Positions 12,247 through 23,349 of a DNA stretch of 64,000 bases are shown one piece after another. Below the pieces are notes generated by a model. The model was given only the letters and a program-made list of their open reading frames with translations. It had not been told where the DNA came from and did no database searches. Source of the DNA: an uncultured Spirochaetaceae bacterium. GTDB lineage: Bacteria > Spirochaetota > Spirochaetia > Sphaerochaetales > Sphaerochaetaceae. The DNA is taken from contig CALXKS010000054.1 of assembly GCA_944389015.1 (NCBI GenBank), forward strand, positions 1 through 64,000, given 5' to 3'. Each line of letters opens with the position of its first letter. Positions within the stretch are counted from its first letter, which is position 1. A program made the position numbers and the translations under genes.

Positions 12247-12378
12247 CATAGGAAACTGAAGGAAAATGCAGACTCCACCAAGGGTGCACTAATTTGACCT
12301 TTGAAAGAAGATTTCGCAGCCGCGATACCAGGACCAGATAGAAGAAAATACAGAAGAATAATATACTCCTCCATTGGT

Positions 12379-13749
12379 ATGGGAAGACGCTACGATCTAG
12401 GGAAAGACAGAATATGGCCTCTTGTGCTCTCTCTTGCACTGCCGACAGCGCTTGCGCAGGCTGTGAATGTTCTCTATGCGATTGTCGACAGAATGTATAT
12501 CGGGCATATAGCAGGCTATGGTGACATAGCACTTGCAGGAGTCGGTGTTGCAGCTCCTATCGCTGCATTCATATCCTCATTCGCATCCCTGATAGGGATG
12601 GGAGGTGCCCCGATAATGGCAATGAGGGAAGGACACGGCGACCATGAGGCGGCGGAGGGAATCGTAACTACAGGTTTCTATCTTCTTCTGCTCTCCTCTG
12701 CAATCCTCACTCCGGTATTCTTTCTGACAAGGAATCCTATCCTTCTGGCATTCGGCGCATCCACGGCAACCCTTCCATACGCTTCGGAATACCTTGGATG
12801 GTATCTGCTGGGAACTCCTTTCGCCCTGCTTGCCACAGGCCTGAACAGCTTTGTCATCAATCAGGGGCTCTCTGCAAAGGGAATGATATCAGTCCTGGCA
12901 GGAGCTGTGATGAATATCATACTCGATCCGGTATTCATCTTCCTCTTCGACATGGGAGTCAAAGGTGCCGCAATAGCAACGGTGATCTCGCAGATTGTAT
13001 CGATGCTCATCGCAATACAGGCCCTGCGCTCACATAATACTGCGATAAAACTCAGATTCCACGGCTTCCTGCCAGGGGAGATCGGGAGGATAATCAAGTT
13101 CGGCCTGTCCTCATTCATCATAATATCAACAGACAGCCTGCTGCTGATCGTCCTCAATGCGATGCTGCAGAAATACGGCGGGCCGGAGATGGGAGATATT
13201 CTCATAACATGCTCAACCATTGTCCAGAGCTACCATATCCTCGTCACCTACCCAATGGGAGGAATGACCGCAGGATGCCAGGGGCTTGTAAGCTATAATT
13301 ATGGGGCAGGAAACAGCGACAGAGTACGGCAGAGCATCAGGAATCTGCAGATCCTCATCACCTGCTACACAATCGTTATGTTCTTCTTCACCATATCCGG
13401 TGCCGGCATTTTCGCATCGCTCTTCTCCAATGATGAAGAGATCCTGAAGCTTTCAGCCCGCTATATGATGATCTTCGAATGCATGGTGATCCCATTGTCA
13501 TTCCAGTATGTCAATGTTGATATGATGACAGCTCTTGGACAGGTAAGGTTCTCGCTTCCTCTGTCATTGAACAGGAAGATCTCATTCATGATCGCGACTA
13601 TACTGCTGCCTGTATTCTTCGGAGCGGAATCAGCATTCTTCGCAGAAGGGATCTCTGATCTGCTCTCTGCTATCGTGGGAACGATTGTCATGGTGACACA
13701 GCTGCCGAAGATACTGAGAAAACGTGAGAACGCTGGCCTTACTATATAG
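12379..13749 (+). CDS. MATE family efflux transporter
   Basis: Inner-membrane cation/drug antiporter of 456 residues with about 12 transmembrane segments in two halves. The N-terminal YDLGKDRIWPLVLSLALPTALAQAVNVLYAIVDRMYIGHI is the standard MATE opening and fixes the start at ATG 12379; a TTG-initiated extension of 26 codons is probably not used. The loop VNVDMMTALGQVRFSLPLSLNRK near residue 375 mirrors the second-half pattern. It follows the tRNA-Arg gene by about 130 nt with no regulator beside it. A second, related MATE gene lies at 62478. Confidence 0.9.
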   Translation: MGRRYDLGKDRIWPLVLSLALPTALAQAVNVLYAIVDRMYIGHIAGYGDIALAGVGVAAPIAAFISSFASLIGMGGAPIMAMREGHGDHEAAEGIVTTGFYLLLLSSAILTPVFFLTRNPILLAFGASTATLPYASEYLGWYLLGTPFALLATGLNSFVINQGLSAKGMISVLAGAVMNIILDPVFIFLFDMGVKGAAIATVISQIVSMLIAIQALRSHNTAIKLRFHGFLPGEIGRIIKFGLSSFIIISTDSLLLIVLNAMLQKYGGPEMGDILITCSTIVQSYHILVTYPMGGMTAGCQGLVSYNYGAGNSDRVRQSIRNLQILITCYTIVMFFFTISGAGIFASLFSNDEEILKLSARYMMIFECMVIPLSFQYVNVDMMTALGQVRFSLPLSLNRKISFMIATILLPVFFGAESAFFAEGISDLLSAIVGTIVMVTQLPKILRKRENAGLTI

Positions 13750-13792: not shown

Positions 13793-15244
13793 CTATTTTG
13801 ACTTCACTGGCGCCATCTTCTGGCTTCTCAGCTTGAGAGCAAGCGCAGGCTTTACAATCGTACCAGGACCGGCAATACAGCCACCCTCGCACGCCATGAC
13901 CTCAACAAGCTCTGCCTCAGGAGCCCTGCGTTCCCATGTCTTCATGAGACGGACAGTTTTCTTGTCCAGTCCATTGATCGGCAATGTACGAGCATTGACA
14001 CCTTCCGCCTGGAATCTTCTCATGACACATGCTGCAACACCTGAAGTGACTGCGAACTCGCGGCAATCCTCAAATGAAGCTGTATCACCAAGATCATCAG
14101 CCTCCATCTCCCTCACATCGATATCCTTGGCGATGAAAATCGAAGCAAGCTCTGCGAACGTCATGACACCATCGATCTTATCGCGGTATCTCTTCGCAGC
14201 TTCAACCTTCTTTGCAAGACATGGACCGATGAATACAGACTTTGCATCAGGGTACTTCTCCCTGACGATCTCTGCTGTATATCCCATCGGGGAGAGCGTT
14301 GAGGATCTCTTCTCCTTCAGATAAGGAATGTGGATATCGACAAGCTCCATATATGATGGACAGCATGAGGTAGTCATGAAGTTCGCCCCTTCGCTGATTC
14401 TCTCATGAAGTTCCTCTGCCTCTTTGACAGATGTGACCTCAGCGCCTTCGGCAACCTCTACGACATCATAGAATCCAGCCTTCTTTATAGCCGCTTTCAG
14501 CTGTCCGAGAGATCCTGGGAACTGCCCTTCGATTGCAGGAGCGATCATTGCAACGACCTTCTCTCCGCGCTTGAGCATCTTGGCTACCGGGAAAAGACCT
14601 GAGCGCTCCACTATGGCTCCGAAAGGACAGGATCTGACGCACTTTCCACAGCCTATGCACTTATCATGCTCGATCTCTACGAAGCCTTCCTCATTCTTCT
14701 TGACTGCATCGACAGGACATGCTTCCTCACAGGGAACAGGGATATGGACTACAGCATGGAACGGACATACTTCCATGCACTTTCCGCATCTGATGCACCT
14801 GTCTTCCTGAATATGGGCTTGACCGTTTATGAAAACGATTGCATCCTTCGGGCAGTTGGACATGCAGGGACGGGCAAAGCAGCCTCTGCATCCATCAGAG
14901 ATCCTGTACTGGGACTTCGGACATCCTGAACAGCCTGTGATGATTGTAGTAAGAAGCGGAAGAGGCGGCTTATCCTCGGAGAGGACCTCTTTCATATACT
15001 CTGCAAGCGGCTTCTCCTCGTCATCATCACGCTCGATATTAATACCAGCCAGAGCCATGATGCGATAGCGCACCATCGCTCTCTCTTTATAGATACAGCA
15101 TCTGAACGGAACTCTTGTCTTTGGGATTATCTCCAGAGGCAGTTTATCAGCCTGCTCAACGAGAGTACCATCGAAAAAGCACTTAAGGACTTCTGTATCG
15201 ATCTTCCTCTTCATGAGAGTGTACTGATTATTCAGTTCAAGCAT
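13793..15244 (-). CDS. [FeFe] hydrogenase, group-B-like, 483 aa
   Basis: Iron-only hydrogenase catalytic subunit. Order: an unassigned N-terminal 90 residues; a Cys-rich region (GCSGCPKSQYRISDGCRGCFARPC...NC, residues 104-131); 4Fe-4S motifs CIRCGKCMEVCP (150-161), CEEACP (172-177) and CIGCGKCVRSCP (196-207); then the H-cluster domain with TSCCP (292-296), GPC (Cys342) and MACEGGC (Cys452, Cys456). Cys294, the proton-transfer position, is kept, so catalysis is plausible. It matches the monomeric group B hydrogenases of anaerobes, probably ferredoxin-linked. GGAGG lies 10 nt upstream, and the start overlaps the preceding [2Fe-2S] gene by 8 nt. It is the last gene of the hydrogenase operon. Confidence 0.85.
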   Translation of the reverse strand: MLELNNQYTLMKRKIDTEVLKCFFDGTLVEQADKLPLEIIPKTRVPFRCCIYKERAMVRYRIMALAGINIERDDDEEKPLAEYMKEVLSEDKPPLPLLTTIITGCSGCPKSQYRISDGCRGCFARPCMSNCPKDAIVFINGQAHIQEDRCIRCGKCMEVCPFHAVVHIPVPCEEACPVDAVKKNEEGFVEIEHDKCIGCGKCVRSCPFGAIVERSGLFPVAKMLKRGEKVVAMIAPAIEGQFPGSLGQLKAAIKKAGFYDVVEVAEGAEVTSVKEAEELHERISEGANFMTTSCCPSYMELVDIHIPYLKEKRSSTLSPMGYTAEIVREKYPDAKSVFIGPCLAKKVEAAKRYRDKIDGVMTFAELASIFIAKDIDVREMEADDLGDTASFEDCREFAVTSGVAACVMRRFQAEGVNARTLPINGLDKKTVRLMKTWERRAPEAELVEVMACEGGCIAGPGTIVKPALALKLRSQKMAPVKSK

Positions 15245-15497
15245 TCTTCACAGCCTCCGCAAGGAGCTTGCAGAACATATCCTGATTCACTCCGCTATAG
15301 ATTTTGTCATTGATTGACACATATGGAGCGCTTCCATTGCCGACCTTGCACTCGTCGAGGCATGAGCAGCCTTCAATCTCACACTCTGCGAGCACTGCCG
15401 GATCGACAAAGTCATTGAACAGAAGGAGATCAGCTCCTCCCTGCACAAAGCAGGCTGTGCCTAAACAGATTCTTACCTTTACCTTGGACTTCTTCAT
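15237..15497 (-). CDS. Thioredoxin-like [2Fe-2S] ferredoxin, 86 aa
   Basis: Small electron carrier of the NuoE/HydC C-terminal type. Four cysteines, Cys11 and Cys16 (CLGTAC) and Cys44 and Cys50 (in CSCLDEC, which also has Cys46), fit the thioredoxin-fold [2Fe-2S] pattern. Family members pass electrons to hydrogenases or NADH-linked flavoproteins. A strong ribosome binding site (AGGAGG) precedes ATG 15497, which lies 9 nt after the phosphatase gene; the 3' end overlaps the hydrogenase gene. No flavoprotein partner is encoded nearby. Confidence 0.82.
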   Translation of the reverse strand: MKKSKVKVRICLGTACFVQGGADLLLFNDFVDPAVLAECEIEGCSCLDECKVGNGSAPYVSINDKIYSGVNQDMFCKLLAEAVKNA

Positions 15498-15506
15498 TGA
15501 ATCCTC

Positions 15507-16703
15507 CTATAAATACTCCTGGGATGTTTCCTTAAGATATATTTCCTCAAGCGCCTTTCTCAGACGCCCGATTATCGTTCTTCTGATTCCGATCTCGACA
15601 GGGATGTTCGGATCCTGATGGGCTTCATTGATCTTCGTACCTACGATGAAATGGACCTGATCGCTATCGAGAAGCATTTCAACGAACTTCTTTGCCGGAT
15701 CATTGGGAAGATCGGCAGGATTCGTCTTCTTCTCAAGTATCGTGGCAACCTTGGACAGTGTGAGCATTCCCTCTGTCACAAGATCAATACCCTCCATCTT
15801 CGATGCTGGCGGCACATCCTTTGACCACGAAGAAAGATCGAGCGAGAGCTTCTTGCCAAGGAGCCTTGAGACTATCTGGGCGGTAGTTCCTCCGCTGACG
15901 ATCTTCTTCCCCTTGAATGCCCTGATCTTCTCTCCTAGAACCTCATCCGCTTCCTTTGTGAACGGAGGCCCGGTGACAATCAGCAGGCGCCTCGGTCGCC
16001 TGACATAGACTACTACGCATGTGATATCATCCTTGGAGGCAAGACCATCCAGAGAGTATGCCTTCTGGACAATCGCCCTGGACAGCTCGCGCGCGGAGAT
16101 ATCAGGATCCTTCCTTATCTCTTCACTGACGAAAGCCTTCACGCCCTCAAGCCTCCAGCCAAGAGGAAGACTCTTGCCAAGACCTGACTGTGTGACTCCA
16201 TCTGAGAACATCACAAGCCTGTCGCCTATCTCAAGATTGAAAGCCGACTGTGCGATTATCTCTTTCTTGAATGCCCCTTCTCGCTGCAGCTCTGTTTTAT
16301 CGCGCTTCCAGGTTATCGGCTCCGGGCCTGAGAACCTGAGAGATGGGGGATTGTCATATTCAACAAGATTGACAGCTATATGCTCCATATCCTCGCCATA
16401 GCGGATATCAGCAATAGTGAATGTCGAATAGCTTATCTTCCTCTCCTTGCAGACAGGAAGAGTATCCATGATTATCTTCGCAGAGTGGCTTAGGTCAATC
16501 GGGGAGAAGGAGAGACGATGAGCCATATGCGCTGTAAGAGATGCAAGCACATTGGCTTTTACCCCGCTTCCAAGACCATCGGAAAGCGTGGATACAATCT
16601 GATTGTTATCCGGATTCCTTGAAAGAAGGAATACATCTCCGCCTATCTTCTGCCCATGTTTGAAAACCTGAGCATAATCCACATCTATGAAGATATTGTT
16701 CAT
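15507..16703 (-). CDS. SpoIIE-type PP2C protein phosphatase, 398 aa
   Basis: Serine/threonine phosphatase of the SpoIIE/RsbU class. The metal-binding loops are STLSDGLGSGVKAN (near residue 40) and GDRLVMFSDGVTQSGLG (near 160), and the domain ends with SKDDITCVVVYV near 230. Residues 240-398 form an extra region (RRLLIVTGPPFTKEADEV..., KIVSGGTTAQIVSRLLGK) that I cannot assign. It overlaps the HydS gene by 4 nt (ATGA) and sits between two hydrogenase genes, so it probably carries the signal from the sensory hydrogenase. No partner kinase or anti-sigma factor gene is visible in the window. Confidence 0.85.
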   Translation of the reverse strand: MNNIFIDVDYAQVFKHGQKIGGDVFLLSRNPDNNQIVSTLSDGLGSGVKANVLASLTAHMAHRLSFSPIDLSHSAKIIMDTLPVCKERKISYSTFTIADIRYGEDMEHIAVNLVEYDNPPSLRFSGPEPITWKRDKTELQREGAFKKEIIAQSAFNLEIGDRLVMFSDGVTQSGLGKSLPLGWRLEGVKAFVSEEIRKDPDISARELSRAIVQKAYSLDGLASKDDITCVVVYVRRPRRLLIVTGPPFTKEADEVLGEKIRAFKGKKIVSGGTTAQIVSRLLGKKLSLDLSSWSKDVPPASKMEGIDLVTEGMLTLSKVATILEKKTNPADLPNDPAKKFVEMLLDSDQVHFIVGTKINEAHQDPNIPVEIGIRRTIIGRLRKALEEIYLKETSQEYL

Positions 16704-18487
16704 GTCAGATCCCCGCCTTCGTCCTCTGTGAACGATGAATCGGACTCATTTGCCGAATGCACGCTGAAAGCATCGATCAGCGAGTTGAGCATGATCTCCG
16801 TCTCTGCAGCGTTCTCTCCGAGAAGCGATGCTATCTGCTGGACAGTCTCAAGCGACTTCTGGATAACATCCTCCGCCTTCTTCACAACTGTCTCACGCCT
16901 GATTGTCGGATTCGTGATATCCTCGAACATCGCACCGAGAAGCCTCTTCTCCTCAACGAGGAAGAATGTGACACGGAGATACTTATCCTTGAAATGGAGT
17001 CTGTACTGTCCCGGATGCGAAAGATAGAACTGATCACGGAACTTATCGGAGAATGATATGAAGCGCTCAAGCGGCAGTCCTTTCACCATGGAAAGAACGC
17101 TCTGATCCACGAACCCCTCTTCCATATCACCGAAGAGATCAAGGAATCTGGTATTGCAGTCCGCTATCTGGAGATCCGAATCAACGATCACAACACCCAT
17201 CGGGATCGTACGGAGAAGCACATCGACCTTGCTTTCAGCTTCCTTGCGCATCTTCGTCACGCACATCTCAATCTCTGCCATGCCGTCAAGATATGCTATA
17301 GCCATGTCACGGCAGGTATTATAGCCACAGCCTCCGCAGTTCAGCTCATCGGCCTTCGTAAGCTTTCCAAGCTCGACAAGAGCCCGCTTTATCTCGCTCT
17401 CGGTATGCTCTTCCCTGAAACCGCTCTCGCATGCCGGCTTCTGTGAATCAAGAAGCGAATAGCCCTTCTCAAGAAGCGTCCTTGCGAACTCCTCATCTCC
17501 GGTGAAGAGCTCTGGCTCATCGAGCCTCCTCTCTGTCCACTCCGCAGCCTTTCTCTTCTTCTGGGCTATCGATCCTTTGACGCTCGTACCAGGGCCATTG
17601 ACACACCCGCCATCACAGGAAAGAAGCTCCAGGAACGGGAATGGATCATCCTCGACAGACAGCGCGGACAGGACTTCCTCCATTCCGGACATCGAGATGG
17701 CTTTTGTATCGATTCTGTTCTTTCCCCAGATGGAAGAGCTCATTATCTGACCACCCTCGATGGGATACAAGGTACTCAGACCGGCTTTCATAGGGACAAA
17801 ATCGACAGGCTCGGCCTTTATCGTCTCCAGGGAAATGCCCTCGCTCTCCATCCAGGCTCTGAGCTCATCGAAGGATATGGCGAGATCAGGATAACCAGAA
17901 GTAGTATCAGCCTCCACCTTCTTGGCGATGCATGGACCTACGAACACGATGATCAGGTCCTCGTTGTACAGATGCCTGAGGTAAGCGCTGTGCGACTGAA
18001 GCGGAGAAGGAACGGGAGCAAGCCTGTCCACATACTGCGGATGATACTTCTTCACAAGCTCCACAACCGCAGGGCATGCTGTGCCGATAAACGGAGCATT
18101 GCCATCATGCTCTGATGCATAGATATCAAGCGCCTGTGTAACAAGAGCCGCACCTATTGCTGTTTCAGATATAGCTGTGAAGCCGAGCTTCTTCAGCGCT
18201 GTCAGGAGCTCTTCCTCATAGCCGGAGAACTCCGCCGCATATGATGGAGCAAGGGAGCAGAACACCGGGCGCCCTGATCTGATCGCCAGCTTCACGCGCT
18301 CCGTATCATCCCTGACCTTCTTCGCATTATTCGGACAGACATGGACGCACTTGCCGCAGTAGACACATCTGTCCTTCATGATCATGGCATTGCCGTCTTT
18401 GATCTGGATAGCTTTGACAGGACATGAGCGCACGCACTTATAGCAGTCGCGGCAGCTTGTCACCTCAGTGAAGATCGGATTCTGCAT
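16700..18487 (-). CDS. hydS: HydS-type sensory [FeFe] hydrogenase with PAS domain, 595 aa
   Basis: Order: two 4Fe-4S motifs (CRDCYKCVRSCP and CVYCGKCVHVCP, residues 12-52), the H-cluster domain with TACP (136-139), GPC (Cys186) and SCDGGC (Cys291, Cys295), a further Fe-S motif NCGGCGYNTC (about 383-392) and a PAS domain (about 421-526). This is the layout of group C hydrogenases proposed to sense H2. The proton-transfer Cys is Ala137, as reported for HydS, so fast turnover is not expected. ATG 18487 has GGAGG 6 nt upstream; an ATG nine codons earlier has none. It overlaps the upstream [2Fe-2S] gene by 23 nt and the phosphatase gene by 4 nt. Confidence 0.88.
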   Translation of the reverse strand: MQNPIFTEVTSCRDCYKCVRSCPVKAIQIKDGNAMIMKDRCVYCGKCVHVCPNNAKKVRDDTERVKLAIRSGRPVFCSLAPSYAAEFSGYEEELLTALKKLGFTAISETAIGAALVTQALDIYASEHDGNAPFIGTACPAVVELVKKYHPQYVDRLAPVPSPLQSHSAYLRHLYNEDLIIVFVGPCIAKKVEADTTSGYPDLAISFDELRAWMESEGISLETIKAEPVDFVPMKAGLSTLYPIEGGQIMSSSIWGKNRIDTKAISMSGMEEVLSALSVEDDPFPFLELLSCDGGCVNGPGTSVKGSIAQKKRKAAEWTERRLDEPELFTGDEEFARTLLEKGYSLLDSQKPACESGFREEHTESEIKRALVELGKLTKADELNCGGCGYNTCRDMAIAYLDGMAEIEMCVTKMRKEAESKVDVLLRTIPMGVVIVDSDLQIADCNTRFLDLFGDMEEGFVDQSVLSMVKGLPLERFISFSDKFRDQFYLSHPGQYRLHFKDKYLRVTFFLVEEKRLLGAMFEDITNPTIRRETVVKKAEDVIQKSLETVQQIASLLGENAAETEIMLNSLIDAFSVHSANESDSSFTEDEGGDLT

Positions 18488-18746
18488 CAGTTCCCTCCAG
18501 TGCCTTTCTGACAAGGTCTATTACGCAGCTGGAATCAGAGATACCTGAGAACTCCTTATCGCCAATCATGATATGCGGGCCTGAATTGCATTTGCCGAGA
18601 CAGAGATGTCCTTCAAGCTCAACCCTATCCTCAAGTCCGTTCTCGTTTATATATCCTTCCAGATCGGAAAGGATGCCGCTGTTGCCTCTTGCAAAGCAGC
18701 TGGAACCCATGCAGAGTTCCACTCTCAGCTTATTATTCTCAGCCAT
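18465..18746 (-). CDS. Thioredoxin-like [2Fe-2S] ferredoxin, 93 aa
   Basis: Second small NuoE-like electron carrier and first gene of the hydrogenase operon. Its four cysteines (CMGSSC at 12-17; CLGKC at 48-52) fit the [2Fe-2S] thioredoxin fold. Low similarity to the 86-residue protein at 15237 suggests each serves a different hydrogenase. A promoter lies about 25 nt upstream. Confidence 0.82.
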   Translation of the reverse strand: MAENNKLRVELCMGSSCFARGNSGILSDLEGYINENGLEDRVELEGHLCLGKCNSGPHIMIGDKEFSGISDSSCVIDLVRKALEGTDAESDLH

Positions 18747-18768: not shown

Positions 18769-18795
18769 ACTATACCATGTCGAACAGTAAGTCAA
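18769..18795 (-). promoter_or_regulatory. Predicted promoter of the hydrogenase operon
   Basis: On the minus strand TTGACT (18790-18795) lies 15 bp from TATAGT (18769-18774), slightly short; TATTGA two bases upstream gives 17 bp. The gene start follows by 22 nt. The AT-rich gap 18796-18907 has no clear Rex-type inverted repeat by eye. Confidence 0.5.
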
Positions 18796-18907
18796 TAAAA
18801 TGATTCAGTGCTAGAAAATAGCTATGAAAAATCTGAAAATTACACTTATATTGGATTGAAATTGCAGATAAAATTACCAGCTTCACATTAATTGCATTTT
18901 TTATGCA

Positions 18908-19588
18908 TTATATGTCGCATTCGCAATATTCATCCCCCATTTCTTCTGCAAGTTTTTTCCTAAGCTTTATCGAAAGAACTGCGAAAGATGTTGCCAGATC
19001 GGTCCTCTGAAGGACAACATCTGCAGGGATTTTCAGATCCTTCGGAGCAAAATTCCATATTCCCCTTATCCCGCATCCCACAAGAAGATCTGCTGTGGCC
19101 TGGGCCTGGGAAGCAGGAACCGCGATTACCCCGATTGTCACGCGATGTGTCTTCACATACTGGTTGATCGTATCTATAGGGAGGACAGTCATATCGCCGA
19201 TCCGAGATCCTATGCGCTTCGGATCCTTGTCGAAAGCCGCTACGATCTTCAGGCCATATGCCTCGAATCCACCATATGCGGCGATGGCAGAGCCGAGATT
19301 GCCACAGCCTACAATCAGGGCCTCTGTGGGATTATCCCACCCAAGAACATGATTTATCGCAGCGATAAGCTCATCAACGACAAAGCCGATGCGGGGCTTC
19401 CCTTCTATTCCCGTGCTTGAGATATCCTTCCTCACCTGTATCGGCTTCAGCGAAAGCTCATCAGCAAGCTCGGTTGCGCTTATATATCTCTTTCCCCCTT
19501 CCCTGGCCTGCCGGAGAAGCCTGAGATAGGAAGGGAATCTTTTTACCGCTGGTATTGGAATCAGCTCTCTTGAAATATCATCTGCCAT
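18908..19588 (-). CDS. rex: Redox-sensing transcriptional repressor Rex
   Basis: 226-residue NADH/NAD+-responsive repressor that turns on fermentation and hydrogen genes when NADH is high. The N-terminal winged helix contains ISATELADELSLKPIQVRKDIS; the Rossmann domain begins ALIVGCGNLGSAIAAYGGF near residue 88, followed by the family-typical FDKDPKRIG. The C-terminal swap helix is present, and the tail CECDI is unusual. The start overlaps the 3' end of ispH by 11 nt. It closes the yajC-secDF-ispH-rex run, and the hydrogenase operon begins 160 nt downstream on the same strand. Confidence 0.95.
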   Translation of the reverse strand: MADDISRELIPIPAVKRFPSYLRLLRQAREGGKRYISATELADELSLKPIQVRKDISSTGIEGKPRIGFVVDELIAAINHVLGWDNPTEALIVGCGNLGSAIAAYGGFEAYGLKIVAAFDKDPKRIGSRIGDMTVLPIDTINQYVKTHRVTIGVIAVPASQAQATADLLVGCGIRGIWNFAPKDLKIPADVVLQRTDLATSFAVLSIKLRKKLAEEMGDEYCECDI

Positions 19589-20408
19589 AGTATTCTCCGA
19601 TTCTTCCTTTCACAGCCTCGATAAGCTGATCTGGGGCCGAGGCGCCTGCCGTCAGACCTATCGTATTATAATGGAAAACCGCATCCGGAATCATGTCAGG
19701 ATCGGAAACAAGATAAGATGGAAGCCCCTTTCTCCTGGCCAGAGCCGCGAGCTCTGCCGAATTGGCGCTCTCCTCGTCGCCGACGACAACAACGGCATCA
19801 ACGGAAAGCACAAGCTCTTCAAGCGCCCTTCTCCTTTCAGCTGAGGCACCGCATATTGAATTCAGACATCTGATATATATCCCCTTGACATCAGCCTGAT
19901 GAAGTATTTCATCAAGAAGAGCAGATGAAAGGGTTGTCTGTATTACTGCTTCATAACTTGTACCAGAAGTCAGAGCATCAAGATCATCCGGACCCTCGAT
20001 CACTGGCACTTGCCTGCATCCGAGAAGGCCCATGATCTCGCTATGCTTCCCATTGCCGATGAGGACAGGGTTTCCTGCATGCCTCAAGAGCTCTGCATTC
20101 CTGAGAAGGACGGGACAGGTAGCATCCTCGATGATGAACCCGGTCTCCTCGAATGAGTGCCTGAGCCCATCGCCGATGCCGTGCGTGCGGATTATGACCA
20201 CACCCTTCTCATGGCCATCGGGCGAATCTATCTCCATGATGCCTGCAGAAGAAAGCATATCAGCAACGGCCCTGCTGTGGACAAGGGAGCCGCATACATA
20301 GCATGGGAGCCCAAGACTCCGGGCTCTCTCTGCTGCCTTCAGCGCTTTATCCACTGCAGATCTTACACCGCTGCAGAAACCGTATGATGCTGCTTCGATA
20401 ATCTTCAT
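19578..20408 (-). CDS. ispH: 4-hydroxy-3-methylbut-2-enyl diphosphate reductase IspH
   Basis: Last enzyme of the methylerythritol phosphate isoprenoid pathway; it reduces HMBPP to IPP and DMAPP with a 4Fe-4S cluster. The three cluster cysteines are in YGFCSGV (Cys12), DATCPVL (near 98) and SICGASAERR (near 190). Substrate-binding histidines fall in GSLVHSR and GNGKHSE. 276 residues is near the usual 280-310. The start shares bases with the secF stop. Confidence 0.94.
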   Translation of the reverse strand: MKIIEAASYGFCSGVRSAVDKALKAAERARSLGLPCYVCGSLVHSRAVADMLSSAGIMEIDSPDGHEKGVVIIRTHGIGDGLRHSFEETGFIIEDATCPVLLRNAELLRHAGNPVLIGNGKHSEIMGLLGCRQVPVIEGPDDLDALTSGTSYEAVIQTTLSSALLDEILHQADVKGIYIRCLNSICGASAERRRALEELVLSVDAVVVVGDEESANSAELAALARRKGLPSYLVSDPDMIPDAVFHYNTIGLTAGASAPDQLIEAVKGRIGEYYGR

Positions 20409-21616
20409 CAGACCAGTGAGTACTCCTCTTCCTTCTTCTCTTTCTCTACGTTTATCGGCATAAGACGGTGGAAGAATGACAGGAAGGCTGGCGCTAGGAA
20501 GACAGAAGAGTATGCCCCTGCGATCAGCCCCCAGGTCAGGTTGATTGCAAACAGCTGGATATCCCCAGAGCCGAGGAATGCAAGCGGAACAATAGCGAAA
20601 AGCGTTGTAAGGCTTGTGATCACAGTCCTCGTCATCGACTGGCGTACGGACATCGAGATGATATCCTCAACACTGAGAGTCTTCTCCGTCCTTATATTCT
20701 CCCTCACACGGTCGAATATGACGATGGTATTGTTGAGAGAGTATCCTATTATGGTCAGCACGGCCGCAATCGTCGTAGAAGAGACCTCAAGCCTGAATAT
20801 AAGAATGAAGGAAAGCATTGCAAGCACATCATGGACAAGAGCCAGGATGGAGGAAACCGCATAAGCGAATCGGAATCTGAATGCAACATAGATAAGTATC
20901 AGGGCAAGGGCAAGAAGAACGCCGATGACAGAACTCCGGAAAAGGGAGGCAGAGAACTTCGGCCCGACAAAATCAGAACGCATCACAACGATATTCTCAG
21001 CTCCGAAAGCATCTCCCAGAGCACCATTCACCCGCGCTTCGACATCGGCCTGCGTCTCTCCATCTTCAGCATTCACACGTATCTGGAAGCCTGCATCGCT
21101 GGACTTTCCCACCGTCTGCACACTGGCCCCGCCGATAGAAAGAAGGGCGTTTCTCACATCCTCTATGGTGATATCAACAGTATCGGTTGCGAAGTTGATC
21201 CTCAGCGGCGAGGATGAAAGCCTGCCAGGAAGCCCGAATCCCGCTATGAGATTGGCAGAAGGAAGAAGAGGATCCTTCACAGACACATTGACCCCATACA
21301 TCCCAATCGCTTCAGCAACATCCCCTGAAAGAGGATAATCCGCAGGGTTGAACATCACTTCCTCTACTCCGGTCTCATCGCGCATTGTCAGCGTAAGCGC
21401 CCCATCCTCCACGGAGAGCGTCATAGTCTTATCACCCGCATAGGTGCAGGAGAATCCAAGTGGTGCTATCCTCACTTCCTCCGAATAGCCAGAGCCGAAA
21501 TCAATACCCGTTGCGAAACCTTTTGCAAAGAACATCACAGCACCGGCTGCAATGAATACCGATGATGCGATGATTGCTATATATCTGTATCTGAGCGAAT
21601 CAAATGGCTTCTTCAT
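20408..21616 (-). CDS. secF: Protein translocase subunit SecF
   Basis: Membrane protein of the SecDF complex, which uses the proton or sodium gradient to pull secreted proteins through SecYEG. 402 residues with six transmembrane segments: one N-terminal, a periplasmic domain starting FATGIDFGSGYSEEV, then five C-terminal segments including VLTIIGYSLNNTIVIFDRVREN, the SecF hallmark. The periplasmic domain (about residues 35-225) is larger than in short SecF proteins. ATG 21616 overlaps the secD stop as ATGA and has GGAG upstream. Confidence 0.94.
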   Translation of the reverse strand: MKKPFDSLRYRYIAIIASSVFIAAGAVMFFAKGFATGIDFGSGYSEEVRIAPLGFSCTYAGDKTMTLSVEDGALTLTMRDETGVEEVMFNPADYPLSGDVAEAIGMYGVNVSVKDPLLPSANLIAGFGLPGRLSSSPLRINFATDTVDITIEDVRNALLSIGGASVQTVGKSSDAGFQIRVNAEDGETQADVEARVNGALGDAFGAENIVVMRSDFVGPKFSASLFRSSVIGVLLALALILIYVAFRFRFAYAVSSILALVHDVLAMLSFILIFRLEVSSTTIAAVLTIIGYSLNNTIVIFDRVRENIRTEKTLSVEDIISMSVRQSMTRTVITSLTTLFAIVPLAFLGSGDIQLFAINLTWGLIAGAYSSVFLAPAFLSFFHRLMPINVEKEKKEEEYSLV

Positions 21617-23349
21617 ACTCCACTCCTTCTCCATGAAAGGGAAACACCCTTGAAGCTCTCCTCCTTCACGAAGAAATCAAAAAGAAGGTGCGAGACAAAA
21701 AGCGATGTGAAGAGAGAGCAGACAATCCCGACAGCCAGTGTATTGGCAAAGCCTTTCACAGTACTGGATCCAAGGACTGAAAGGACAACAGCCGCTATTA
21801 TGGTTGTCACATTGGAATCCATGATAGTCCAGAATGCCCTGCCGAAACCAAGTCTGACTGTATCATATGGGCTCTTGCCCGCCCTTAGCTCCTCCTTCAT
21901 CCTCTCATATATGATCACATTGGCATCGATTGCCATGCCAAGGGTCAGGACAAGACCCGCGACAGAGGAAAGAGTCAGAGTGAAGTGCAGAGCGGAAAGC
22001 ACTGCTATCATCATGTAGAAATTCATGAGAAGCGCGAAATCAGCAATGAATCCAGCAGGCCCGTAATAGATGATCATGAAGCATACGATAAGCAGAAGAC
22101 CGAACAGTATTGCCTTCAAAGCTATTGATACAGCATCTGTGCCGAGCGAAGCTCCCACCCCCTGCTGTGATACCACAGACAGATCGATAGGAAGAGAGGA
22201 TGTACGCAGGGCAACAGCCAGCGATCTCGCTTCCTCCTCCGTAAATGACCCTGTAAGCTGCACATCCTGGCTTATGGCGCTGTTGATCACGGCAACGCTC
22301 TTCACCTTCCCGTCCATTACAACGGAAAGCTGCTCTCCGACATGCCTTGATGTCAATGCATGGAAGAGCTCTCCGCCTTCGCTGTCAAGACGGAAATTCA
22401 CGACAGGCTGGTTGTTCTGCGGATTGCGTTCCATCCTGACAGACTCAAGGTGGGTCCCATCAAGAGCAACCTCAGAATCTATGACGACGAATTCCCTCAG
22501 CACATCGATACCGTATTCGTCCTCTGTATAGTAGCCAAGCAGCTCTCTATCCGCGGGGATGTAGTCAGGAACTATGATGGAGCCATCTGGACGGAATGCT
22601 GCAGCCCGGTTACCCATATAATCCCTGTTGACTCTGGCTGTAAGTTCTGAATCAACAAGATGGAATGCAAGGGATCCTCTGGACATCAGGAAGGAATCGA
22701 CTCTCTCCGGATCGACCTCTCCCGGAACCTCGATCAGGATCTGATCTGCCCCCTGCTGCCTTATATCAGGCTCTGTGACACCGAACTGATCGATACGGGA
22801 TGTAAGAATCTCTATATCATCAGCGATAAGGGAGGAAAGCTCATCCCCGGAAGGCCTGTATCCATGCTGGGACTCGAAGCTGTCAAGATCTGCTTCAAGC
22901 ACCACGGACATGCCGCCTCTGAGATCAAGCCCGAGCTGGAGCACATTGCCTGACAGCCTCTTTGCATCCATTATCTCGTCACGGTAATAGCTCTCGATTG
23001 CCATGAAAAGCTCATCCTCGCTCGCAAAAGATGAAAGAAGAGAATAAACATCCCAGCTTTCGGGGCTATCCATTCCTTTATCCTTCCTTGCATCCTCTGC
23101 AAAGCCTGTCAGGTACCTCAGATCCTCTGGAACAGATTGATTTCGGTCCGTCTGGAGCATCTCCCGGAGAACCAGTGTCTCTCTTGAGGCCTGGCCCCTA
23201 GCCCAATCCCTTATATTCTCATTGCTTCCTGCGGCGAGATCCTTGATGCTCTGCGACACGAAACAATACCACCTTATTGTCGGATAAAGGAGCAACGCAC
23301 CTACAACTATAACAAGAACAACAAAAAGAGAACGTCCTACTTTGCTCAT
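21613..23349 (-). CDS. secD: Protein translocase subunit SecD
   Basis: Partner of SecF, 578 residues, six transmembrane segments with a large periplasmic region. LGLDLRGGMSVVLEAD near residue 137 and GLVLTLGMAIDANVIIYERMKEEL near 495 are SecD signatures. The start at 23349 (MSKVGRSLFVVLV) fits the usual short N-terminus. It has no ribosome binding site at normal distance: GGAGG lies about 32 nt upstream with a hairpin (23359-23377) in between. An ATG at 23388 would add 13 residues but overlaps that site. Confidence 0.93.
   Translation of the reverse strand: MSKVGRSLFVVLVIVVGALLLYPTIRWYCFVSQSIKDLAAGSNENIRDWARGQASRETLVLREMLQTDRNQSVPEDLRYLTGFAEDARKDKGMDSPESWDVYSLLSSFASEDELFMAIESYYRDEIMDAKRLSGNVLQLGLDLRGGMSVVLEADLDSFESQHGYRPSGDELSSLIADDIEILTSRIDQFGVTEPDIRQQGADQILIEVPGEVDPERVDSFLMSRGSLAFHLVDSELTARVNRDYMGNRAAAFRPDGSIIVPDYIPADRELLGYYTEDEYGIDVLREFVVIDSEVALDGTHLESVRMERNPQNNQPVVNFRLDSEGGELFHALTSRHVGEQLSVVMDGKVKSVAVINSAISQDVQLTGSFTEEEARSLAVALRTSSLPIDLSVVSQQGVGASLGTDAVSIALKAILFGLLLIVCFMIIYYGPAGFIADFALLMNFYMMIAVLSALHFTLTLSSVAGLVLTLGMAIDANVIIYERMKEELRAGKSPYDTVRLGFGRAFWTIMDSNVTTIIAAVVLSVLGSSTVKGFANTLAVGIVCSLFTSLFVSHLLFDFFVKEESFKGVSLSWRRSGV

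Follow-up and report, generated by a model that had tools for sequence, protein, structure and literature searches.

Gene content and order of the locus

The stretch of DNA analysed here (the window; 64,000 nucleotides (nt) of contig CALXKS010000054.1 from an uncultured Spirochaetaceae bacterium) contains five genes on its minus strand, between positions 13793 and 18746. In the order of transcription they encode a thioredoxin-like [2Fe-2S] protein (TrxL-A), the hydrogenase HydS, a SpoIIE/PPM phosphatase (HfsC), a second thioredoxin-like [2Fe-2S] protein (TrxL-B) and a group B [FeFe] hydrogenase (Table 1). Gene families were assigned with the cut-offs of Pfam and NCBIfam profiles. These profiles back all five genes that the original prediction had placed here, namely a PAS-linked, HydS-type hydrogenase, a SpoIIE-type phosphatase, two thioredoxin-like [2Fe-2S] proteins and a second, apparently competent [FeFe] hydrogenase. 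The predicted coupling of the genes by overlaps of 4-23 nt or a 9-nt gap was right as well: TrxL-A and HydS overlap by 23 nt if HydS starts with the ATG at 18487 and by 50 nt if it starts with the TTG at 18514, HydS and HfsC overlap by 4 nt, HfsC and TrxL-B are separated by a gap of 9 nt, and TrxL-B overlaps the hydrogenase gene by 8 nt. A convergent MATE-type gene borders the operon downstream, and on the upstream side a gap of 161 nt separates it from the gene of the repressor Rex on the same strand. The last gene of the operon, which the original prediction had called HydB, is that of a group B monomeric hydrogenase at the HfsD position; the name HydB usually denotes the NuoF-like subunit of HydABC.

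Table 1. Features of the operon and its surroundings (positions within the window).
Feature	Position	Strand	Basis and details
MATE-type gene, convergent, downstream bound of the operon	12301-13749		family name by reading of the sequence
Group B monomeric [FeFe] hydrogenase, HfsD position, 483 amino acids	13793..15244	-	TIGR04105 FeFe_hydrog_B1, 516 bits (cut-off 450)
TrxL-B, second thioredoxin-like [2Fe-2S] protein, 86 amino acids	15237..15497	-	PF01257, 24.8 bits, exactly at cut-off
HfsC-type SpoIIE/PPM serine phosphatase with extra C-terminal domain, 398 amino acids	15507..16703	-	PF07228, 47 bits, residues 35-234
HfsC C-terminal domain, residues 232-398, about 165 residues	15510..16010	-	conserved, without Pfam name
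HydS (HfsB-type), 604 amino acids	16700..18514	-	Pfam: two Fer4, H-cluster domain, 4Fe-4S iron-sulfur (FeS) domain, PAS
HydS FeS domain (residues 391-419) and PAS region (433-534)	16913..17344	-	PF04060, 35.8 bits; PAS_8, 22.4 bits
HydS H-cluster domain	17591..18268	-	Fe_hyd_lg_C PF02906, about 140-141 bits
TrxL-A, first gene, thioredoxin-like [2Fe-2S] protein, C-terminal half, 93 amino acids	18465..18746	-	PF01257, 33.8 bits (cut-off 24.8)
Candidate promoter 5' of TrxL-A	18773..18795	-	-35 TTGACT (18795-18790), 17-nt spacer, weak -10-like TAGTCT
Half-site TGTGAA at the Rex-type operator position of relatives	18872..18887	-	
Rex redox-sensing repressor, 161 nt upstream of TrxL-A	18908..19588	-	NF003994, 253 bits (cut-off 130)

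According to its sequence, HydS is a group C sensory-type [FeFe] hydrogenase. The PAS_8 profile exceeds its cut-off of 21.8 bits, while PAS_9 (19.6 bits) stays under its own. The four cysteine ligands of the H-cluster (C147, C195, C300, C304) are kept in all 106 homologues compared, and the eight ferredoxin-type cysteines and the four cysteines of the FeS domain are almost fully conserved among them. At residue 146, the position of the proton-transfer cysteine in catalytic enzymes, HydS of the window carries an alanine, as do 97 of the 106 homologues (cysteine: six). Alanine is also the commonest residue at this position in sensory hydrogenases (about 43%, compared with 17% for cysteine; PMC10055695). 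The group B hydrogenase, in turn, has retained every cysteine of the H-cluster as well as the proton-transfer cysteine (none of C294, C295, C342, M450, C452 and C456 varies among the 75 homologues compared) and is probably catalytically competent. In HydS, alanine takes the place of the proton-transfer cysteine, whereas the group B hydrogenase has the full set, so that the former appears to be equipped for sensing and the latter for catalysis. The H-cluster maturases HydG and HydF are both encoded in the source genome.

The two thioredoxin-like proteins belong to different orthologue groups. Alignment of TrxL-A with NuoE-type HydC identifies C12, C17, C49 and C53 as its ligands, with the C-x4-C and C-x3-C motifs retained, and all four cysteine ligands of TrxL-B fit the same pattern. 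In HfsC the residue pairs G22-D23, D42-G43, D168-G169 and D225-D226, which include the metal-binding aspartates, are invariant in 47 homologues. An AlphaFold2 model of the protein (predicted local distance difference test (pLDDT) score of 89.8) matches SpoIIE (5ucg; Z 23.9, 2.9 Å over 216 residues) and 3pu9 (Z 25.5).

Distribution of the module and its described relatives

Using an HfsC query built from the operon of the window, 38 spirochaete loci in which HfsC could be scored were sampled, and a scan of named genomes provided the best 80 of at least 582 loci. HydS lies directly before HfsC in 34 of the 38 spirochaete and in 78 of the 80 named loci, the succession TrxL-HydS-HfsC is present in 64 of the 80 named loci, and the full five-gene order occurs in 27 spirochaete and 38 named loci from at least five phyla, all of these counts being biased upward because HfsC served as query. 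The five-gene order was seen in Spirochaetota, Bacteroidota (e.g., Carboxylicivirga sp. A043 and Butyricimonas sp. Marseille-P3923), Planctomycetota, Riflebacteria, Pontiellaceae and metagenome-assembled genomes labelled Alphaproteobacteria. As the order is kept across phyla, the arrangement is far beyond chance, and the conserved order in both sets of loci agrees with the original prediction that the genes form one unit. The novelty which that prediction had considered for a five-gene set with two [2Fe-2S] carriers is, however, not given, as 65 of the 118 loci exhibit the same order.

Where the group B hydrogenase is absent, TrxL-HydS-HfsC may stand alone or adjoin a Rex-HydC-HydB-HydA cluster. 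As the latter is found in other phyla, it is the three-gene sensor that stays constant, whereas the hydrogenase partner varies. The wide and strict conservation of TrxL-HydS-HfsC marks it as a sensor module of general use, which is coupled to either the group B hydrogenase or HydABC. One locus titled Candidatus Riflebacteria (L106:2512-15810) contains, one after the other, Rex, HydC, HydB, HydA, TrxL, HydS, HfsC, TrxL, the group B hydrogenase and a second HydS-HfsC pair. Two HydS-HfsC pairs are also present in two further loci, L129 and L136 (Marinifilum).

The operon of the window is an instance of the already described hfs/HydS arrangement and not a new one. In hfsABCD of Thermoanaerobacterium, a small first gene precedes three others, for a hydrogenase with a PAS domain, a homologue of serine phosphatases and a hydrogenase linked to ferredoxin (PMC5707799, PMC11837493). 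Compared by published description, the order HfsB, HfsC, HfsD with the small HfsA in front is shared with T. saccharolyticum and T. thermosaccharolyticum, and the fluxes concerned are there also under redox control by Rex. HfsA is described as aligning poorly to known proteins and can thus at most tentatively be equated with TrxL-A. Deletion of hfsA or hfsB in T. saccharolyticum shifts the metabolism to ethanol and raises the adhE transcript; deletion of hfsB also increases hydrogenase activity, and the effect depends on hfsC and hfsD (PMC5707799, PMC11837493). The change in AdhE activity in this species exceeds what the transcript level explains (PMC5707799). In Thermoanaerobacterium thermosaccharolyticum, hfsD alone restores the flux (PMC11837493). 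A similar cluster of Ruminococcus albus (HydS/HydA2/AdhE) combines a PAS-bearing group C sensory hydrogenase and a putative Ser/Thr phosphatase with a ferredoxin-only hydrogenase and adhE, and changes 111-fold with H2 conditions, falling at low H2 (PMC6776011). Given these published clusters, the functional idea of the original prediction was already present in the literature. A literature search specific for HfsC, combining SpoIIE with HydS, retrieved no match.

Three features set the window apart from the published clusters, and all of them recur in other genomes: a second [2Fe-2S] protein, a group B enzyme as output and a neighbouring Rex. Unlike hfsABCD, it has five genes, with the second [2Fe-2S] protein located between phosphatase and hydrogenase. 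The R. albus cluster comprises eight genes including adhE, and its hydrogenase is termed group A1 (PMC6776011), whereas the operon of the window contains a group B enzyme and no adhE. HydS of Thermotoga maritima (PMC10055695) resembles HydS of the window as a sensory [FeFe] hydrogenase with a PAS domain and an alanine in place of the proton-transfer cysteine; its Ser267, which that paper compares with a methionine of prototypical enzymes, appears by our motif matching to correspond to Leu298 in HydS of the window.

Proposed signal input and possible transcriptional control

Taken together, the operon is probably a hydrogenase signalling operon of the hfs/HydS type, with HydS as sensor, the phosphatase HfsC as transmitter and the group B hydrogenase as output. 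Judging from the published relatives, it would sense H2 and control the flux towards H2 and ethanol. HydS would bind H2, or read the redox state of ferredoxin, at a slow, sensory-type H-cluster, with TrxL-A as the most likely carrier of electrons to or from it. HydS would then relay the signal through its FeS and PAS domains to HfsC. The two proteins probably touch directly, with the C-terminal domain of HfsC as the probable route, and HfsC might thereupon dephosphorylate a protein that governs the disposal of fermentation electrons. TrxL-B and the group B hydrogenase would act as the output enzyme, which produces H2 from reduced ferredoxin with TrxL-B as presumed electron carrier, and the upstream Rex may add control of the transcript by NADH/NAD.

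Whether H2 is the primary input of HydS can be debated. The sensor could instead respond to the redox state of the cell (ferredoxin or thiols), in which case the residual chemistry of its H-cluster would be incidental and HfsC would report the electron load. The near-complete conservation of the ferredoxin-type and FeS-domain cysteines fits with this idea, as do the two [2Fe-2S] proteins flanking HydS, the adjacent NADH/NAD sensor Rex and Ala146, which weakens the usual proton path. However, the four H-cluster cysteines persist in 106 of 106 HydS proteins, HydS of Thermotoga, which has a low activity and a shifted redox potential, still turns over H2 (PMC10055695), and the regulation in R. albus tracks the level of H2 (PMC6776011). 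Overall, the redox state appears rather unlikely as the primary input.

Rex adjoins the operon in 15 of the 38 spirochaete and 17 of the 80 named loci. In six relatives (L075, L076, L077, L082, L072, L085) the palindrome TGTGA-N6-TCACA, which is close to the Rex operator of Streptomyces, lies about 142-149 nt upstream of TrxL-A and was equalled by few or none of 200 shuffles (for L075, L076 and L082, about 142-144 nt upstream and P of 0 to 0.01). More broadly, a Rex-type palindrome is found upstream of TrxL-A in L042, L075, L076, L082, L085, L090, L093 and L110; in the window, only a half-site is left of it. A genome-wide search for the pattern with three mismatches yielded 139 places, compared with 34 for the reversed pattern, which is too many to be of use. 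By eye, a TTGAC box and a weak -10 element occupy a fixed place before TrxL-A in most loci of the same genus. The candidate promoter of the window was absent from the output of the consensus scan, and the scan for promoters and terminators did not rise above shuffled sequences.

The phosphatase HfsC and its candidate partners

HfsC resembles SpoIIE- and RsbU-type PPM phosphatases in its catalytic domain (PF07228; fold matches with Z 21-25 at 14-22% identity). In contrast to these, its chain has no response-regulator, PAS or membrane part and instead contains an unnamed C-terminal alpha/beta domain. This domain found no confident match in Pfam, NCBIfam or the sequences of the PDB; DUF2299 and FIST were rejected as names, their Pfam matches being at chance level. 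Each genome has one copy of it, which is fused to the phosphatase in nearly all cases. Stand-alone versions were observed at L065:7841-8410, L066:4912-5427 and G131:C33:339666-340013, of which the first adjoins TrxL-B and the group B hydrogenase and the second a TrxL gene. As the phosphatase domain filled the fold search with full-length HfsC, the C-terminal domain was modelled separately with AlphaFold2 (mean pLDDT 91.1). Its best structural matches were nearly all the alpha/beta domain of NuoG, formylmethanofuran dehydrogenase (FmdB) and formate dehydrogenase, that is, of the molybdopterin-oxidoreductase superfamily (Z from 10.3 down to 7.2, root mean square deviation 2.9-4.0, 109-126 residues, 8-20% identity), followed by unrelated proteins at Z of about 6-7. 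As the E-values of Foldseek were weak (best E 0.006), the NuoG-like fold is a lead and not a classification.

The predicted NuoG-like fold, together with the similarity of TrxL and HydS to parts of NuoE and NuoG, the strict gene order and the tight coupling, could also point to a single enzyme complex of all five proteins. In such a complex the TrxL proteins and HydS would serve the group B hydrogenase as subunits for electron transfer, and signalling would come second. This reading is very unlikely, as TrxL-HydS-HfsC is also found without the group B hydrogenase, PAS and phosphatase domains are signalling parts, and hfsD on its own restores the flux in Thermoanaerobacterium thermosaccharolyticum (PMC11837493).

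Besides the upward bias of the locus counts, several observations weigh against a hydrogenase signalling operon acting through HfsC. The window does not contain a full Rex-type site but only its half (shuffle P 0.74). The source genome (2.03 Mb, 83% complete) yielded no match to a STAS protein and no Hanks-type kinase, the latter being thereby rejected as an antagonist of HfsC. The GHKL-type ATPase discussed below stays under the Pfam cut-offs, and neither phmmer nor a motif search placed it beside HfsC in any of the other loci checked.

HfsC is the only SpoIIE phosphatase of the source genome, in which no HATPase_c_2 anti-sigma kinase exceeded the cut-off either. Among 48 genomes of the genus, a STAS match was present in three and HfsC in about 43. 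With a single SpoIIE phosphatase and neither STAS protein, HATPase_c_2 kinase nor Hanks-type kinase at hand, a classical partner switch is unlikely in this genus, and the suggestion of the original prediction to look for a STAS/anti-sigma target elsewhere in the genome came to nothing, also in 45 of the 48 genomes. In view of these absences, the substrate of HfsC may be a metabolic enzyme or one of the hydrogenases, controlled post-translationally, and not a regulator of transcription. This is possible but less likely than not; it also fits with the AdhE activities of T. saccharolyticum shifting beyond the change in transcript (PMC5707799). Yet, the adhE transcript does change there (PMC5707799), and so does the whole cluster of R. 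albus (PMC6776011).

With a signalling role of HfsC in mind, a reasonable candidate for the opposing kinase, and by inference a better counterpart than a STAS/anti-sigma pair, is a GHKL-type ATPase of 157 residues with recognisable N, D and glycine boxes, which is encoded by the second gene of the HydABC operon. This operon of the source genome (L161:8112-13794; G000:C5) has the order HydC-GHKL ATPase-TrxL-like-HydB-HydA and is accompanied by a second, divergent Rex-family gene. In single-sequence searches, homologues of the ATPase were found in 44 of the 48 genomes of the genus and hardly outside of it, probably because the protein evolves fast. It is conceivable, albeit quite unlikely, that HfsC represents a new kind of hydrogenase-dedicated phosphatase, whose C-terminal domain is a NuoG-like docking or ligand-binding module coupling HydS to the PPM domain and which is opposed by this ATPase, so that the two operons would form a phosphorylation switch free of STAS proteins and Hanks-type kinases that sets the balance between bifurcating and ferredoxin-only hydrogenase.

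Beyond the known operon, interest centres on what the unnamed C-terminal domain does and on which protein carries the phosphate. The question of the HfsC substrate concerns engineered ethanol producers and gut fermenters alike, and a small genome with one SpoIIE phosphatase and no STAS or Hanks-type kinase match offers fewer possible partners, which makes it easier to test.

As to the wider surroundings, clustering of the neighbours of the loci yielded mostly frame-shadow open reading frames, in addition to HydG and regulators. Upstream of Rex, the window contains SecF and IspH genes (19578-21634), whose order beside the hfs operon is retained in many Sphaerochaeta-type genomes.

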